A stretch of 64,000 nt of DNA, taken from contig NZ_CP089294.1 of assembly GCF_021919345.1 (NCBI RefSeq), forward strand, positions 62,001 to 126,000. Direction: 5' to 3'. Of the stretch, positions 16,025 to 21,752 are shown piece by piece; position 1 is the stretch's first letter; each line of letters opens with the position of its first letter. Both the position numbers and the translations under genes were made by a program. The notes below the pieces were generated by a model that ran no database searches, was not told where the DNA came from, and saw only the letters and a list, made by a program, of their open reading frames with translations. This DNA is from Paenarthrobacter nicotinovorans. GTDB lineage: Bacteria > Actinomycetota > Actinomycetes > Actinomycetales > Micrococcaceae.

Positions 16025-16352
16025 GCGGCCGCTGGTCCGCAGTTGCCGTGAAAACCCCGAAATGACGGGGCCAGGGCGGCTCTTTGCCCTGCAGAAAACA
16101 GGGTCCCGTCGATTGCGTTTAACGCAATAGGCAGCTTTCTACTTTACATAACATCCGTTATCGGCATCCAAAGTACGGGAGTAGAAGTAGCTGCGGGAAC
16201 TCCCGTCCATCAACGAATCTGGCGTTTCCGCCGGACAAGCAGGCTTTTGTCGAATGCGGACGTGCTGGCGTCCTGGCGTGAACTCGCGCTTGGGTCCTTG
16301 CGACTGTCGGTTTCATGCATCTAATGCATGTTTCCATGGTTTAAGGGTCGTT
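16025..16352. other. 328 bp gene-free spacer before the integrase remnant
   Basis: No gene is supported. It contains the palindrome listed at 16314-16330, just upstream of the integrase remnant. A 73-codon minus-strand frame ending at 15803 reaches 16024 but has no ribosome site. Confidence 0.45.
16314..16330. repeat. Palindrome CATGCAT-CTA-ATGCATG
   Basis: Perfect 7-bp inverted repeat around a 3-base centre, 22 bp upstream of the GTG start of the interrupted integrase. It could be an operator or a recombinase arm site of the old integrase cassette; no second copy was seen in the window. Confidence 0.5.
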
Positions 16353-16767
16353 GTGAGTGGTGTCGTTCCGGGTTTTGTCCCGCGGAGGCTGGTGGATCCG
16401 GACATTGGGCTGTTCCGTGCTGATGAACGGGTTTTTACGGCCATGCTGGATGGCTGGCGGGCGCAGATGCTTGCCCGTGGCCTCACGACGGACACCATCA
16501 AGCAGCGTTGCCAGCTGCTGGAGCGTTTTCAGCGGTTCACGGGTGAATTTCCGTGGCAATGGCGCCCCGCGGACATCGATGATTTCCTGGCCTCGGCACT
16601 TTGGCCCAGTGAGCGTGGCGCCCGGATGTCCCTGGGCTCGTTCGGTGATGCGTTCGCTGCCGCGCGGGATGCCGTCGGTCTGCCGCACGAGTTGGGTCTG
16701 CATTGCCCGAGGCATTTCTACGTGACGCACCTGGTCGAAGCTGGTTATGACGCGGCCTTCGTGCAGA
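16353..16767 (+). pseudogene. Tyrosine recombinase remnant, 5' part (split by Tn554-like element)
   Basis: Starts at GTG 16353. The first 90 or so residues are an N-terminal SAM-like core-binding domain (MLARGLTTDTIKQRCQLLER). It then jumps to the H-x-x-R region (LHCPRHFYVTHLVEAGYDAAF), so about half of the catalytic domain, including the first catalytic Arg, was lost by an in-frame deletion. The coding sequence stops making sense at 16768, where the Tn554-like element starts. Joined to 20764-20891 it reads in frame as FVQTQVGHSYASTTGLYT, the normal end of such an integrase. It was therefore already defective or was reduced after the insertion. Confidence 0.85.
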
Positions 16768-16773
16768 TTATCT
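16762..16773 (+). repeat. Left end of the Tn554-like element: core TGCAGA + TTATCT
   Basis: Core hexamer shared with the right end, followed by the left half of a 6-bp inverted repeat. Probable recombination site. Confidence 0.75.
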
Positions 16774-16887
16774 GGGGCAGGAACCGGGGTGTCTTTGACG
16801 TGCAGCACGGGGCCCGTAACCGTGCAGTTCCGCGTGATGGAGGTGCTTATCTGAAGCTGTCCATCACACGGGATCGCGGGAGGGTTC

Positions 16888-17994
16888 ATGCAGGTTCAAC
16901 GAGTTTTGGTGTCCGGTTCGCCGCTTGAGTCGTGGACTGTGCTTGATGATCATGGTGTCGTTGAGCCGGTGGAGCGGTTTTTGGCTTACCTGACCGACGT
17001 CGAGAGGTCGCCGAACACGCTCAAGGCGTATGCGCATGATCTCAAGGATTGGTTCGTCTTTCTTCGCCACCGCGGCATTGATTGGCGCCAGGTGAGGCTG
17101 GAGAACGTCGGCGAGTTCGTCGCTTGGCTGCGGCTTCCGCCTGCCGGGCGCGCCGCTGACGTGACGCTGCTGCCATCGGCTTCCCATCACTGCGGGCCGG
17201 GCACGTTGAACCGCAAGCTCGCGGCCGTGAGCGGCTTTTACGTGTTCCACTCCCGTCACGGGGTCCCGCTGGGCGACCTTGTCACCGAGTTCGAAACGGT
17301 CCGGTACCGAAGAACGGGATGGAGACCGTTCCTTGCTCACCTTGCCGGGGACAGGCCGCAGCGGCGCAGGATCGTGAAGCTGCGTGAGCCGAAGAGGTTG
17401 CCCACGGTCCTGCCTGCGGCGACGGCTCAAGCAGTGCTGGATGCGTGCACGCGGCTGAGGGACCGGTTCCTGTTCGTCCTGCTCTGGGAGTCGGGAATCC
17501 GTATCGGCGAAGCACTCGGACTAAGGCATGAGGACATTGCAGTCGCCGAGGGCGAGCTGACGATCCGCCGTCGGGTGAACGCCAACCGTGCCCGGGCGAA
17601 GTCCGTTTCGCCGCGCACGATACCGATCGGCGCGGACGTCGTGCGGCTCTACGGCGACTACCTTCACGAGGAATACGGAGATCTGGACAGCGACTACGTG
17701 TTCGTGAATCTGTGGGCGGGCCCCCGCGGCCGCCCGATGGGCTACGCGGCAGTCTATGACCTGGTGAAGCGGCTGCGCCGGGACACTGGAGTGGATTTTG
17801 ACCCGCACTGGTTCCGCCACACCTATGCCACCCGCTTGCTACGAGCCGGGACACCCATCGAAGTGATCAGCAGCCTGCTTGGCCACGCATCGGTCGCAAC
17901 CACCATCGACGTCTACGGCCACCTCACCGTTGAGGACGCCCGCCGCGCCTTCGAAAAGGCAGGGCTGCTGACCGGAAAAGAGGTCACCTGGTGA
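16888..17994 (+). CDS. tnpA: Transposase A, tyrosine recombinase
   Basis: 368 residues. An N-terminal SAM-like domain (NTLKAYAHDLKDWFVFLR) is followed by a catalytic domain with the first Arg in ESGIRIGEALGLRHEDI, the H-x-x-R box in HWFRHTYATRLLRAG, and the LLGHASVATTIDVYGH segment whose Tyr is the nucleophile. All expected catalytic residues are visible. ATG 16888 has GGGAGG upstream. The stop overlaps the tnpB GTG (GTGA). Length and order match TnpA of the Tn554 family, which cuts and joins the element ends together with TnpB. Confidence 0.9.
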   Translation: MQVQRVLVSGSPLESWTVLDDHGVVEPVERFLAYLTDVERSPNTLKAYAHDLKDWFVFLRHRGIDWRQVRLENVGEFVAWLRLPPAGRAADVTLLPSASHHCGPGTLNRKLAAVSGFYVFHSRHGVPLGDLVTEFETVRYRRTGWRPFLAHLAGDRPQRRRIVKLREPKRLPTVLPAATAQAVLDACTRLRDRFLFVLLWESGIRIGEALGLRHEDIAVAEGELTIRRRVNANRARAKSVSPRTIPIGADVVRLYGDYLHEEYGDLDSDYVFVNLWAGPRGRPMGYAAVYDLVKRLRRDTGVDFDPHWFRHTYATRLLRAGTPIEVISSLLGHASVATTIDVYGHLTVEDARRAFEKAGLLTGKEVTW

Positions 17995-20234
17995 GCTCCC
18001 TCGCACTGAATGAAAACGAGGACGGTTGCGGTCTGTTGGCTAAACTCATGGCCACCGTCCGGCCCGAATTCAGACCCGAAATCGTGATCCCGGCCCCAGG
18101 CTCCCTCGTCTTCAACACCGAGCCCTGCCGGATCGACGAGTGTGAACGGCAACGTACGGTGAAAGGGTTCTGCAAAAGCCACTACAAGCGCTGGCTGGAC
18201 CAAGGACGCCCCGAATGGGAGTCATTCCTCGCCAGCCCCGGCCCATTACCCGTAGGCGACGGCCCCTTGGCGGCATGCACCGTCACCTGGTGCCGCTTCG
18301 GTTCGGCCAGACGCGGCCTCTGCGTCAGCCATCACGGGTTCTTCAGTCGTTCCAGCGAGACCGACGTGATTAAGTGGCTCGCTACCCTCTCACCCGAGCC
18401 GGTCATCGAGCGGCCCGAATGCAGGCTCGCGTTCTGCGACCTCTGGGCCCAAGGCAACTCGCCGTTGTGTCTGAACCACAAGTCCCGCTGGCACGCCATT
18501 GGCGCACCGGATATCGACGAGTTCGTCGCCCGGTGCGAAAGCGTGGGCCTGGACCGGTTCGATTTCCGATGCCTGGCAGATCGTCCCCAGCTGCGGCTTG
18601 AGCTCCAGCACGCCATGCAATGCCGCCACGATGAACGCCGGGCCAGTACCCGCTCCTCCGTTGTGACGCCCGTGATCCGGCTCGTCTCCGACAGCGGCGT
18701 CACCTCGCTGCTGGACTGGAATCTTGACCAGTGGGCAGCGTTCTATATCGCCGGCCGGGTGGGCCGCAGTCACCGCCACAACGGGCAACTTGCGTTCCTG
18801 CGCTTTGCCTACACCCGGCTCGAAGACCTCGTCGCCGGCACCGGCTGGGAGTCAGAGTATTCCCGCGACGCCTGGGCCCTGCACCGCCTCGGCTACACCG
18901 ACACCCGCGGCACCCTCCGCTTCGACAAGATCCCGCAACCGTGGCTGCGCCCCCTGGCAAAACGCTTCATCCGATGGCGGCTGACCAGCGGCAGGGAAAT
19001 CATCCAAGGGCGCGTCGACATCCTCGCCCTGAACCGATTCGCCGCGTTCCTCGCCCGCACCATCCCCCACTCCGACAGCCCGGACTGCATCGACCGCGGC
19101 ATCCTGGAACGCTTCCTCGCCGAGCTCGCCCGGGACAAACGGGCAGTAATTTCCCGTGGCCGCGACGTCAGCTCCCTGAACGCCTTCTTCGCCGCGATCC
19201 GCCGCCACGACTGGGCCAAAGACCTGCCGGCATCGGCGAACTTCTACCCTGAAGACTTCCCACGACCAGCCAAACGACTGCCCAGGGCCCTGGCCGATCA
19301 CATCATGGCGCAACTGGACCAACCCGAAAACCTCGGCAAATGGACCAGCCCCGACAGCCGGCTACTCACCCTGATCCTAATGCGCTGCGGACTGCGCGTC
19401 GGGGACGCCTGCAACCTCGCTACCGACTGCGTGGTCCGTGACGGTGACGGCGCCCCCTACCTGCGCTATATGAACCGGAAGATGAAACGCGAAGCCCTCG
19501 TACCCCTCGATGAGGAAGTCCACGCCGCCATCCTCGATCAGCAGCGACGCGTCCGCGAACGATTCCCCGACGGCAGCAACTGGTTGTTCCCGGCCCCGAA
19601 GATGAACCCCGACGGAGCAAAACCGCTCACCACGCACTCCTACCGCGGACAGCTTGAAGACTGGCTGGAACGCTGCGACATCCGCGACGAACACGGACAA
19701 GAGGTGCGCCTGACCCCACATCAGTGGCGCCACACCTTCGGGACAACACTGATCAACCGCGACGTTCCCCAGGAAGTTGTCCGGGTCCTCCTCGACCACA
19801 CCTCGGCGGAGATGACCGCCCACTACGCCCGGCTGCACGACACAACCGTGCGCCGCCACTGGGAGGAAGCCCGTAAGGTCAACATCAACGGCGACACCAT
19901 CACCATTGACCCGCAAGGACCACTCGCCGAAGCCAGCTGGGCCAAACAACGCCTCGGTCGCGCAACACAGAGCCTGCCGAACGGATTCTGCGGGCTGCCG
20001 GTTCAGAAGTCCTGCCCGCACGCCAACGCCTGCCTGACCTGTCCCATGTTTGTCACCACCGCCGAGTTCCTCCCCCAGCACCAAGAGCAGCGCCGCCAGA
20101 CCGTCCAGATCCTGTCCGCCGCCGAAGCCCGCGGACAGACCCGGCTCATCGAGATGAACCAGGCAGTACTGCACAACCTGGACCGCATCATTGACTCCCT
20201 CGACGACACCGCACCCGACGAGGCCGCCGGATGA
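17991..20234 (+). CDS. tnpB: Transposase B, large tyrosine recombinase
   Basis: 747 residues, starting at GTG 17991. The N-terminus carries Cys/His clusters (for example ECERQRTVKGFCKSHYKRW, repeated in two similar copies), probably zinc-binding. The recombinase domain is in the second half: LILMRCGLRVGDACNLATDC with the first Arg, HQWRHTFGTTLINR with H-x-x-R, and VLLDHTSAEMTAHYARLHD with the nucleophilic Tyr. Near the end there is another Cys/His cluster (KSCPHANACLTCPMF). It is longer than the classic TnpB because of the N-terminal zinc region. It overlaps tnpA and tnpC by four bases each, so the three are translated as a unit. Confidence 0.9.
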   Translation: MSSLALNENEDGCGLLAKLMATVRPEFRPEIVIPAPGSLVFNTEPCRIDECERQRTVKGFCKSHYKRWLDQGRPEWESFLASPGPLPVGDGPLAACTVTWCRFGSARRGLCVSHHGFFSRSSETDVIKWLATLSPEPVIERPECRLAFCDLWAQGNSPLCLNHKSRWHAIGAPDIDEFVARCESVGLDRFDFRCLADRPQLRLELQHAMQCRHDERRASTRSSVVTPVIRLVSDSGVTSLLDWNLDQWAAFYIAGRVGRSHRHNGQLAFLRFAYTRLEDLVAGTGWESEYSRDAWALHRLGYTDTRGTLRFDKIPQPWLRPLAKRFIRWRLTSGREIIQGRVDILALNRFAAFLARTIPHSDSPDCIDRGILERFLAELARDKRAVISRGRDVSSLNAFFAAIRRHDWAKDLPASANFYPEDFPRPAKRLPRALADHIMAQLDQPENLGKWTSPDSRLLTLILMRCGLRVGDACNLATDCVVRDGDGAPYLRYMNRKMKREALVPLDEEVHAAILDQQRRVRERFPDGSNWLFPAPKMNPDGAKPLTTHSYRGQLEDWLERCDIRDEHGQEVRLTPHQWRHTFGTTLINRDVPQEVVRVLLDHTSAEMTAHYARLHDTTVRRHWEEARKVNINGDTITIDPQGPLAEASWAKQRLGRATQSLPNGFCGLPVQKSCPHANACLTCPMFVTTAEFLPQHQEQRRQTVQILSAAEARGQTRLIEMNQAVLHNLDRIIDSLDDTAPDEAAG

Positions 20235-20644
20235 ACCGCTCCGACAACAGCCGGCACCTGGTCAAAGCTGCACAGCAGCGCGCGGCGCTCACCAGGTCCA
20301 AAGCCGTCCAAGCGCTGCGCACCCTTCATGCGGAAGGCCGCCCGGTCACTTTCGACGCCGTCGCCAGATACGCCCGGGTCTCCCGGTCCTGGCTTTACAC
20401 CCAGCCCGACCTCCGCGCCGCAATCGAACGCCTCCGCCAAAACCAAGCCGCCCCGGAGCCCACACCGGAATCCCGGCCACAGCGGGCAAGCGAGGCCTCG
20501 CTACGGCAACGACTAGAAGCGGCCAACGACAGAATCAGACGACTCAACGACGAGAACCAACGACTGCGACAGCAACTCGCACACGCCCTCGGACAACGCC
20601 GCCAAAGTCCATCACCAGACCCCGCGACCATCCCGAATCCATAA
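20231..20644 (+). CDS. tnpC: Transposon accessory protein TnpC (DUF6262-like)
   Basis: 137 residues. The N-terminal half resembles a helix-turn-helix domain (VTFDAVARYARVSRSWLYTQ) and the C-terminal half is a coiled coil (LRQRLEAANDRIRRLNDENQ) ending in a polar tail. This matches the small third protein of Tn554-type elements, which influences the efficiency and orientation of transposition but is not the catalyst. It overlaps the end of tnpB. Confidence 0.8.
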   Translation: MNRSDNSRHLVKAAQQRAALTRSKAVQALRTLHAEGRPVTFDAVARYARVSRSWLYTQPDLRAAIERLRQNQAAPEPTPESRPQRASEASLRQRLEAANDRIRRLNDENQRLRQQLAHALGQRRQSPSPDPATIPNP

Positions 20645-20751
20645 CGGATCCACGAGAATGGAAGGACAGCCAATGCCACCGTCATGCACGTCCCGGACAC
20701 ACCCACCAACACAAAACCGCAGGCCAGAGGCACACCAGCCCGACGGGCTCA

Positions 20752-20763
20752 AGATAATGCAGA
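20752..20763 (+). repeat. Right end of the Tn554-like element: AGATAA + core TGCAGA
   Basis: Right half of the inverted terminal hexamers (AGATAA pairs with TTATCT at the left end), followed by the second copy of the TGCAGA core. Confidence 0.75.
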
Positions 20764-20891
20764 CGCAGGTTGGCCACTCCTATGCGTCGACTACCGGGCT
20801 CTATACCTCGGTATCGTCGGACTTCAAGCAGAAAACCGTGCAGCAGATGATTGCACGCCGCATCGCGAACTTGGAGGACCCAGGTGCCTGA
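20758..20891 (+). pseudogene. Tyrosine recombinase remnant, 3' part
   Basis: Continuation of the gene that begins at 16353. From 20764 it reads QVGHSYASTTGLYTSVSSDF and on to a TGA at 20889-20891; the segment holds the nucleophilic Tyr of the tyrosine recombinase. The codon at the junction is made from base 16767 and bases 20764-20765, so the frame is kept. Without the element the total product would be 180 residues, too short to be active. Confidence 0.85.
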
Positions 20892-21238
20892 ACAGCGCCG
20901 GATTGGCTACCGCTGGAAACCTGCGAGCCCTGATGACAAAGCAGAACCTCTGGAAGACCACCGAACTGATGCCGCTCCTGAAATCCCGTGGCATCAACCT
21001 CTCCGAAAGCCAGGTCTACAGGCTGGTCACCTCGACGCCGGAGCGCATTCCGGCAAAGACATTCGCGGTGCTCTGCGACGTCCTGGGCTGCACCCCGAAC
21101 GACCTTTTCGAACCTTTCGTGGAGATGCGCGCCGCGGCGACAGCGAACGCCCCGAAACGCAGCGAAGACCTCGGCATCCAACCAGGAAACCCGATCGCAC
21201 GACGTGTCCGACTCGTCGCTCCCGAAGACGGTGAGTAG
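20884..21238 (+). pseudogene. XRE-type helix-turn-helix regulator with a +1 frameshift
   Basis: The expected start is GTG 20884, overlapping the integrase end, and reads VPEQRRIGYRWK. At about 20920 one extra C shifts the frame; removing it gives KLRALMTKQNLWKTTEL and runs without break to TAG at 21238. The rest is a Cro/C1-type domain (SESQVYRLVTSTPERIPAKT, VLCDVLGCTPNDLFEPF). A restart at ATG 20933 could give a 101-residue protein but has no ribosome site. This gene usually follows the integrase in such three-gene cassettes. Confidence 0.75.
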
Positions 21239-21480
21239 GCCACGCAAAGCAGAGGACCCCGTTCGCTGGCCGGTCCCCTGCGGCCGCTGCGGCCAGCACC
21301 ACCAAACGGTCGCGCGTTGGCCCGACGGCGGAGTCTGCGGCTACTGCTATCAGCAGGCAAAACGCACCCGCGGGGTCTGCGCCTGCGGCCATGACCGGGC
21401 CGCCGCCATCCTCATCCTCGTCTTCGGACAACAAGCTGAAAACATCGCACGTCTAACCTGGGACGACATCAGCGTCACCG
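21231..21480 (+). pseudogene. Zinc-ribbon integrase remnant, truncated
   Basis: Starts at GTG 21231, overlapping the XRE gene end. It has an N-terminal zinc ribbon with paired cysteines (VPCGRCGQHHQT, GVCGYCYQQAKRTRGVCACG) and then jumps directly to LVFGQQAENIARLTWDDIS, a piece from the catalytic domain of the same protein type. Meaningful sequence ends near 21480; the frame runs on to 21572 without similarity I can recognise. So it has both an internal deletion and a lost 3' end. It marks the right edge of the old integrase cassette, 270 bp before the nicotine genes. Confidence 0.65.
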
Positions 21481-21752
21481 GCGGCGTGGACCAACGGCCG
21501 ACTAACGGTCGTGAGCAGTTTCCTTGCTCCGCAGCTTTTTGCCCTTGCCACGGTGTTTCGCTGAGTTGCTAGCCTTGCCGACATCTGCAGCCGTGAAGGT
21601 TAGGGCCATCGCTCGGTGGCAACCCTAGCTATGACTTTTCGCAAATTCTGCAGCCGCGGACCAGACAGACCCATCTACAACCGCAACATCACAGTTACGT
21701 CAGTGTGGTGTCCTCGACAGGGACAGTTTGCTGTCGTGGCGCGTTGTCCTTT

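Follow-up and report, generated by a model that had tools for sequence, protein, structure and literature searches.

A self-contained Tn554-family transposon in an integrase gene of Paenarthrobacter nicotinovorans and its probable lineage at fixed codons of transposition genes

Site-specific elements use safe sites within host genes. Tn554 itself targets radC, a target that is not required of all members of its family; transposition in this family needs TnpA, TnpB and TnpC. In the sections available to us, PMC10214605 describes how the 6-bp footprint of Tn554, taken from the left flank at the donor, ends up to the right of the new copy, and gives this placement of the hexamer as the rule both for Tn554 and for the SEs (strand-biased circularizing elements), which are reported from Gammaproteobacteria, have the core genes intA, tfp, intB and srap and use other targets. 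The actinobacterial Tn554-related transposons were defined as a class by Van Houdt et al. (2012; PMC3414803), whose accessible passages report a long N-terminal extension without recognisable domain and mention neither targets nor a hexamer rule nor zinc motifs. The GInts, according to the parts of PMC5385486 at hand, carry ginABCD, with several tyrosine recombinases and the TnpC-like GinD, and related GInts reuse ssb. Finally, the Tn5053/Tn402 res-site hunters prefer, and nest in, the recombination apparatus of other mobile elements; the portion of PMC7765201 consulted ascribes to them tniABQ, 5-bp direct repeats and, as targets, res sites rather than codons of enzyme genes.

The window analysed here, a whole stretch of 64,000 nucleotides, belongs to contig C2 of a two-contig, 4.48-Mb genome. 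On its plus strand, to which all window coordinates below refer, an element of 3,990 bp extends from 16768 to 20757; its ends are common to ten aligned copies of 3,989-3,994 bp, and at other loci the blastn match of the element stops at the same ends. The preliminary description had reported TGCAGA at both ends, with TTATCT and AGATAA inside in inverted order, and the coordinates agree: the left terminal TTATCT (16768-16773) is the inverse of the right terminal AGATAA (20752-20757), and the hexamers TGCAGA lie immediately outside, at 16762-16767 and 20758-20763. The left hexamer belongs to the target itself, as its equality with the hexamer of empty sites shows; the right one, here the same, is read as brought from the donor site. 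TGCAGA alone is common, with 61 matches in the window.

Three reading frames overlap inside the element in the order tnpA, tnpB, tnpC, encoding a tyrosine recombinase of 368 aa (16888-17994; PF00589), a long tyrosine recombinase of 747 aa (17991-20234; PF00589) and a DUF6262 protein of 137 aa (20231-20644; PF19776). The proposed kinship with Tn554 extends to all three proteins, which are homologous to TnpA (35.7%, E 8e-79), TnpB (32.8%, E 4e-73) and TnpC (31.0%, E 1e-21) of the Tn554 reference. Pfam recognises only tyrosine-recombinase and DUF6262 domains in these genes. TnpA and TnpB retain the HxxRH and GH/DH...Y motifs and, judged from the motifs alone, may both be active. Overall, we put at roughly 0.8 the joint probability that the window element is a self-contained Tn554-family transposon and that, within its long-TnpB lineage, each clade sits at conserved codons that are fixed for the transposition genes it uses in other elements.

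The gene interrupted in the window encodes a tyrosine integrase. Its 5′ part (16338-16761) is 100% identical to NicSoilE8 over 424 bp, with an open frame that continues into the element up to 16928, and its 3′ part lies at 20764-20891. As foreseen from the sequence, excising 3,996 bp (the 3,990-bp element plus one hexamer) fuses ...DAAFVQ in frame to TQVGHSYASTTGLYT. Natural counterparts of this predicted empty site, without gap over 806 bases, occur on the NicSoilE8-2 plasmid (804/806 bases, 2 mismatches) and in genome G476 (803/806 bases, 3 mismatches), and both are identical to the prediction for 30 bases either side of the junction. Excision thus restores the frame of the recombinase gene, but does not make it whole: compared with the intact gene in L106, 582 bp (194 codons) are missing near 16592. 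Since the two empty sites share this deletion, it predates the insertion, and the element landed in a remnant. The same integrase remnant on plasmid pCZY of Paenarthrobacter ureafaciens (L125) bears a 1.4-kb insertion, by eye an IS256-type element, about 15 bp upstream of the site.

When intact, the host module consists of three genes: the integrase, which comes first and is the interrupted one, a Cro/C1-type HTH gene (20932-21238 in the window; the L129 homolog matches PF13443) and a gene for a cysteine-rich protein with weak recombinase similarity, present in the window as an internally deleted remnant (21231-21483). The module (L126-L140; about 16141-21483 in the window) is dispersed and repeated. 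Among 15 modules, the homology of most pairs breaks off at about -1,209 on one side of the site and at about +1,908 or +2,400 on the other. It is longer in some pairs, and G369 holds two copies that are 99.8% identical. Because the module is dispersed and repeated and has shared boundaries, it is probably a mobile element itself.

Close copies of the transposon occur in Arthrobacter and Pseudarthrobacter plasmids, in one MAG and in genomes; a copy on a Streptomyces plasmid has a TnpB of 66%, and that of an Embleya-like genome copy is 72% to the Streptomyces TnpB. Counted once each, and leaving out four sister plasmids of NtRootA2, the close copies number 13: the window, NtRootA2, two on P. defluvii pB (a and b), nzgw91, MA-N2, M2012083, ZXY-2, G412a, G412b, G414, Streptomyces NBC_01562 and G930. 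Every one of them interrupts a tyrosine integrase gene, always at one and the same codon, between F-V/I/L-Q and x-Q-V/M/C-G-H, with both junctions visible in 12 and only the right one in ZXY-2. At least six different integrases are involved, which supports the reading of the preliminary description that the element targets integrase genes. In a tree of 44 TnpBs, the 11 integrase-site rows are grouped with support 100/99.

The host integrases of near-identical elements share only 37-50% protein identity with one another. NtRootA2, P. defluvii a and P. defluvii b carry elements identical over 3,990 bp in three different integrase genes, from which the window element has 2 differences, and identical elements occupy two integrase genes of G412 (G412a and G412b); such identity marks the copies as recent. 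The G930 copy is reversed at the target codon, and the left and right flanks of the M2012083 copy derive from different integrases. In eight carrier genomes, the strict target pattern was found unoccupied once (G413) and never in the other seven; this unoccupied match (G413:C1:3121135-3121158) is near the filled site of the MA-N2 genome. As for internal variation, M2012083 (L025) has a short inverted duplicate of about 148 bp inside tnpB, and the Streptomyces NBC_01562 copy (L030 7733-8725, minus strand) has, between tnpC and the right end, a 330-aa gene that is phosphotransferase-like by eye. No relatives were found in the viral contigs searched or in the family of G798 (0/35); the phage records searched yielded two distant Listeria records, and the genus of G1064 yielded 3/70, all of them 53-58% relatives already in the sample.

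Empty sites are frequent. The window-type right flank is present in 42 of 204 genomes of the genus, and 17 of the 20 loci read were empty (16 with TGCAGA, 1 with TGCAAA) and 3 occupied. The second integrase type (P. defluvii b) is present in 25 of 189 genomes; the 25 loci read comprise 20 empty sites (10 TGCAAC, 10 TGCAAT), 3 occupied ones, one scar-like (L173) and one other (L196). The third type (P. defluvii a) was met in 28 plasmid records; in the four of these that were read, the site is empty and has TCCAGC. The sequence at L173 (G480 contig C28) reads GATCCT-AGATAA-TGCAGATGGGCC, which could be the scar of an imprecisely lost element or an assembly artefact. Rue61a p232 (L198) and P. defluvii pB (L028) each carry a divergent pair of integrase modules, with both sites empty in p232 and both filled in pB; the two plasmids have one module type in common and differ in the other integrase.

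Across the three integrase types, occupied copies have on the left a hexamer that is also found in empty sites, and the right hexamer may differ. The left/right pairs are TCCAGC/TGCAGA in P. defluvii a, TGCAAC/TCCAGC in P. defluvii b, TCCAGC/TGCAAC in nzgw91 and TGCAAC/TGCAGA in G412a; with the chimeric M2012083 and with G930, the hexamers are unequal in 6 of the 12 two-junction close copies, which led us to reject a target duplication as the origin of the right hexamer. Each right hexamer in the clade is also the hexamer of some integrase site. TGCAGA had been put forward as the core of the element; we abandoned a fixed core, as other copies have TCCAGC, TGCAAC, TGCAAT or the complement of TCCAAC, and the constant parts are the element ends and the target motif. 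Since the hexamers record target and donor, relatives with other hexamers do not speak against integrase targeting. The footprint appears to be of the Tn554 type, with the target hexamer on the left, the donor hexamer on the right and no target duplication. On this basis we infer movement, and the simplest order of moves would run from a TGCAGA site to P. defluvii a and on to P. defluvii b, and from G412b to G412a.

The habit of the wider family exceeds the integrase genes of the close copies. Among 40 loci with more distant TnpBs, and 11 further ones, no integrase fragment broken at the element ends was found; where TnpB is full-length, the upstream flanks resemble transposase genes. We mapped the TTATCT/AGATAA ends and then searched the left and right flank pieces separately. 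In L032, L034, L069 and L071, one flank matches the IS256 profile (NF033543) as far as 302-303 and the opposite flank from 303-304 onwards; in L161 the left piece matches to 303 and the right piece gave no match; in the IS256 cases the last base of the hexamer starts a Glu codon, presumably the catalytic one. The IS5 profile (NF033580) is matched to 123-124 and from 128 in L162, L164 and L166, and both flanks begin at 128 in L165. The IS1380 profile (NF033539) is cut at 352 on both sides in L072 and L099 and on the left in L073. Single loci represent IS1182 (L026, right piece, the left being a contig edge), IS3 (L074, a single piece recognised) and a serine recombinase (L031, one piece, PF00239 to 121 of 145). 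Six plasmid relatives were added later, and the three with ends are all in transposition genes, again one locus per class except for tniB: L202 in a Tn3 transposase (PF13700, right piece), L203 in tniB (PF05621, left piece) and L204 in istB (PF01695, 62-209 and 210-237). L163 lies between TniA- and TniQ-type genes, and we take its target for tniB, given that the cut coincides with that of L203.

Together with 16 of 18 in the first set, 19 of 21 mapped insertions of distant relatives are in transposition genes (IS256, IS5, IS1380, IS1182, IS3, Tn3, serine recombinase, istB and tniB), a count in which L026, L074 and L202, and by profile also L031 and L203, have one recognised flank piece only. 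The exceptions are L033, in a gene that was not recognised, and L098. The latter is an element with a partial TnpB match, in a gene cut near a conserved motif which, from its two halves, we take to be a YhcG/DUF1016-type nuclease. L073, L165 and M2012083 have chimeric flanks; in L165 and L073 the two flanks belong to separate copies of one transposase family and point in opposite directions, as recombination between two copies of the element would leave them. Excluded from the mapped count were L070 (no TnpA found), L082, L089 and L102 (no ends found), L090, L092 and L093 (left end only), L100, L101 and L167-L171 (degenerate or fragmentary) and L205-L207 (30-39% TnpB), in which a search for a pair of ends found none.

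The target class follows the TnpB tree. Among 37 rows, those in tyrosine recombinases (YR; 6), IS256 (5), IS5 (4) and IS1380 (2) and the short TnpBs (12) form one group each; of the eight rows in no group, L163 (tniB) and L033 fall within the IS5 group; the 4 changes of target class are the minimum, and 0/200 shuffles were as low. The palindromic label of this tree, which L075-L077, L094 and L095 also bear, is based on a check of L078, L079, L080, L083, L084 and L097; L035 was labelled 'other'. The twelve short-TnpB loci (L078-L097 group) have a different left end, CGATATCT, and nine of them also a matching right end; in these nine, the imperfect palindrome AAACGAY/RTCGTTT flanks the element and the flanks are otherwise unrelated.

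The long TnpBs have an array of three C-x4-C...C-x2-H motifs, at residues 46-163 in the window protein (18126-18479), whose twelve C/H are invariant in 49 aligned sequences (48 homologs, drawn from 120 listed matches of 475). The three motifs are present in 20 of 22 long-TnpB loci, L165 and L166, truncated, having none, and in 0/12 short TnpBs; L089, L091 and L093 have one motif each, and L082 has three without a mapped target. Because long and short TnpBs contrast in both motifs and targets, the zinc array would be the part that reads the target. The AlphaFold2 model of TnpB has a mean pLDDT of 76 and a pTM of 0.43. A Foldseek search against the PDB gave no known fold for the N-terminus, the best 50 of 105 matches being tyrosine recombinases, among them XerA, Tn1549 Int and Cre.

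By analogy with its kin, the element would form a circle carrying the left 6 bp, strand exchange at the target would follow, and transposition would presumably be of the copy-out kind. The inserted copy has the target's 6 bp to its left and the 6 bp that it carried to its right. The target gene is cut, in the window clade, upstream of its GH...Y segment; the target enzyme would lose function, and the choice of target would fall to the TnpB zinc array. A more ambitious version, to which we give even odds, is that of a lineage of hyperparasites that has specialised on the transposition genes of other mobile elements, ten gene families in all, at codons that are conserved and often near-catalytic, each clade with its own enzyme, in which the zinc array reads the target and its loss accompanied the switch to the palindromic site.

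These patterns could also have arisen otherwise. Ordinary Tn554-type specificity for short matches, with the apparent preference reflecting the abundance of transposition genes and their tolerance of insertions, is an unlikely explanation in our view. Transposase genes are indeed common on the sampled replicons, and the targets of L098 and L033 were not recognised as transposition genes; however, 19 of the 21 mapped insertions lie in such genes, the position is fixed within each family and the class is set by clade, and short-TnpB relatives from these same genera sit at a palindrome whose flanks are unrelated. Less probable still is the absence of any targeting, a few old insertions having been carried around inside their host modules through homologous recombination or the transfer of plasmids. 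Such co-spread would suit the dispersed and repeated state of the modules, the relatedness of several carrier plasmids and the M2012083 flanks from two integrases. Against it, near-identical elements reside in integrases that are only 37-50% identical, the left hexamers differ, many homologs are empty and one copy is reversed; moreover, in other clades the cut falls at one profile position across different subfamilies of IS256. The suggestion, made in the passages of PMC10494377 available to us, that the Tn554-like genes serve to mobilise a nicotine-catabolic transposon of 49 kb seems very improbable for this element, whose own ends lie 3,990 bp apart and recur in other integrases. We thus retain the reading of a self-contained transposon from a lineage at fixed codons of transposition genes.

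The actinobacterial class (2012, PMC3414803) and the 6-bp rule are known already. On the other hand, the passages seen of the literature searched, which was mainly open-access, contained no statement we recognised that Tn554-like elements target integrase or transposase genes, nor did we meet there the transposition-gene preference, the clade-specific codons or the zinc array. If the reading is true, a lineage aiming at the transposition genes of other elements would be a natural brake on those elements and would ride on whatever carries them, and the nesting would be explained without chance. Should the hyperparasite version hold, other transposons would be silenced and would offer landing sites that are safe, plentiful and mobile. 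Because the right hexamer records the site occupied one step before, it makes movement between plasmids traceable by sequence alone, and the long TnpBs, alike in design and with many targets, provide a comparison set for target choice by tyrosine recombinases.

Compared with the known systems, the window element has the same tnpA-tnpB-tnpC order as Tn554 of Staphylococcus aureus and homologous proteins, and the one codon used by 13/13 close copies is site-specific insertion of the kind seen in the Tn554 family. Unlike Tn554, the window copy is without resistance cargo and, whereas the Tn554 reference is situated behind a UPF0758 gene, which we take to be RadC, it sits in an integrase gene instead of radC. 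The third protein, a DUF6262 protein, sets it apart from the RITs with their three tyrosine recombinases, as do its three genes from the SEs with four core genes. With the GInts, as far as the passages describe them, it shares multiple tyrosine recombinases and a TnpC-like protein; it differs in having three genes rather than ginABCD, and GInt targets are not described there as transposition genes. It is a member of the actinobacterial class as the accessible passages define it, i.e., a small and a long tyrosine recombinase with a TnpC partner. Finally, its genes are of the tyrosine-recombinase and DUF6262 types only, unlike the tniABQ of the res-site hunters, and yet both these and the window lineage aim at the recombination apparatus of other mobile elements.
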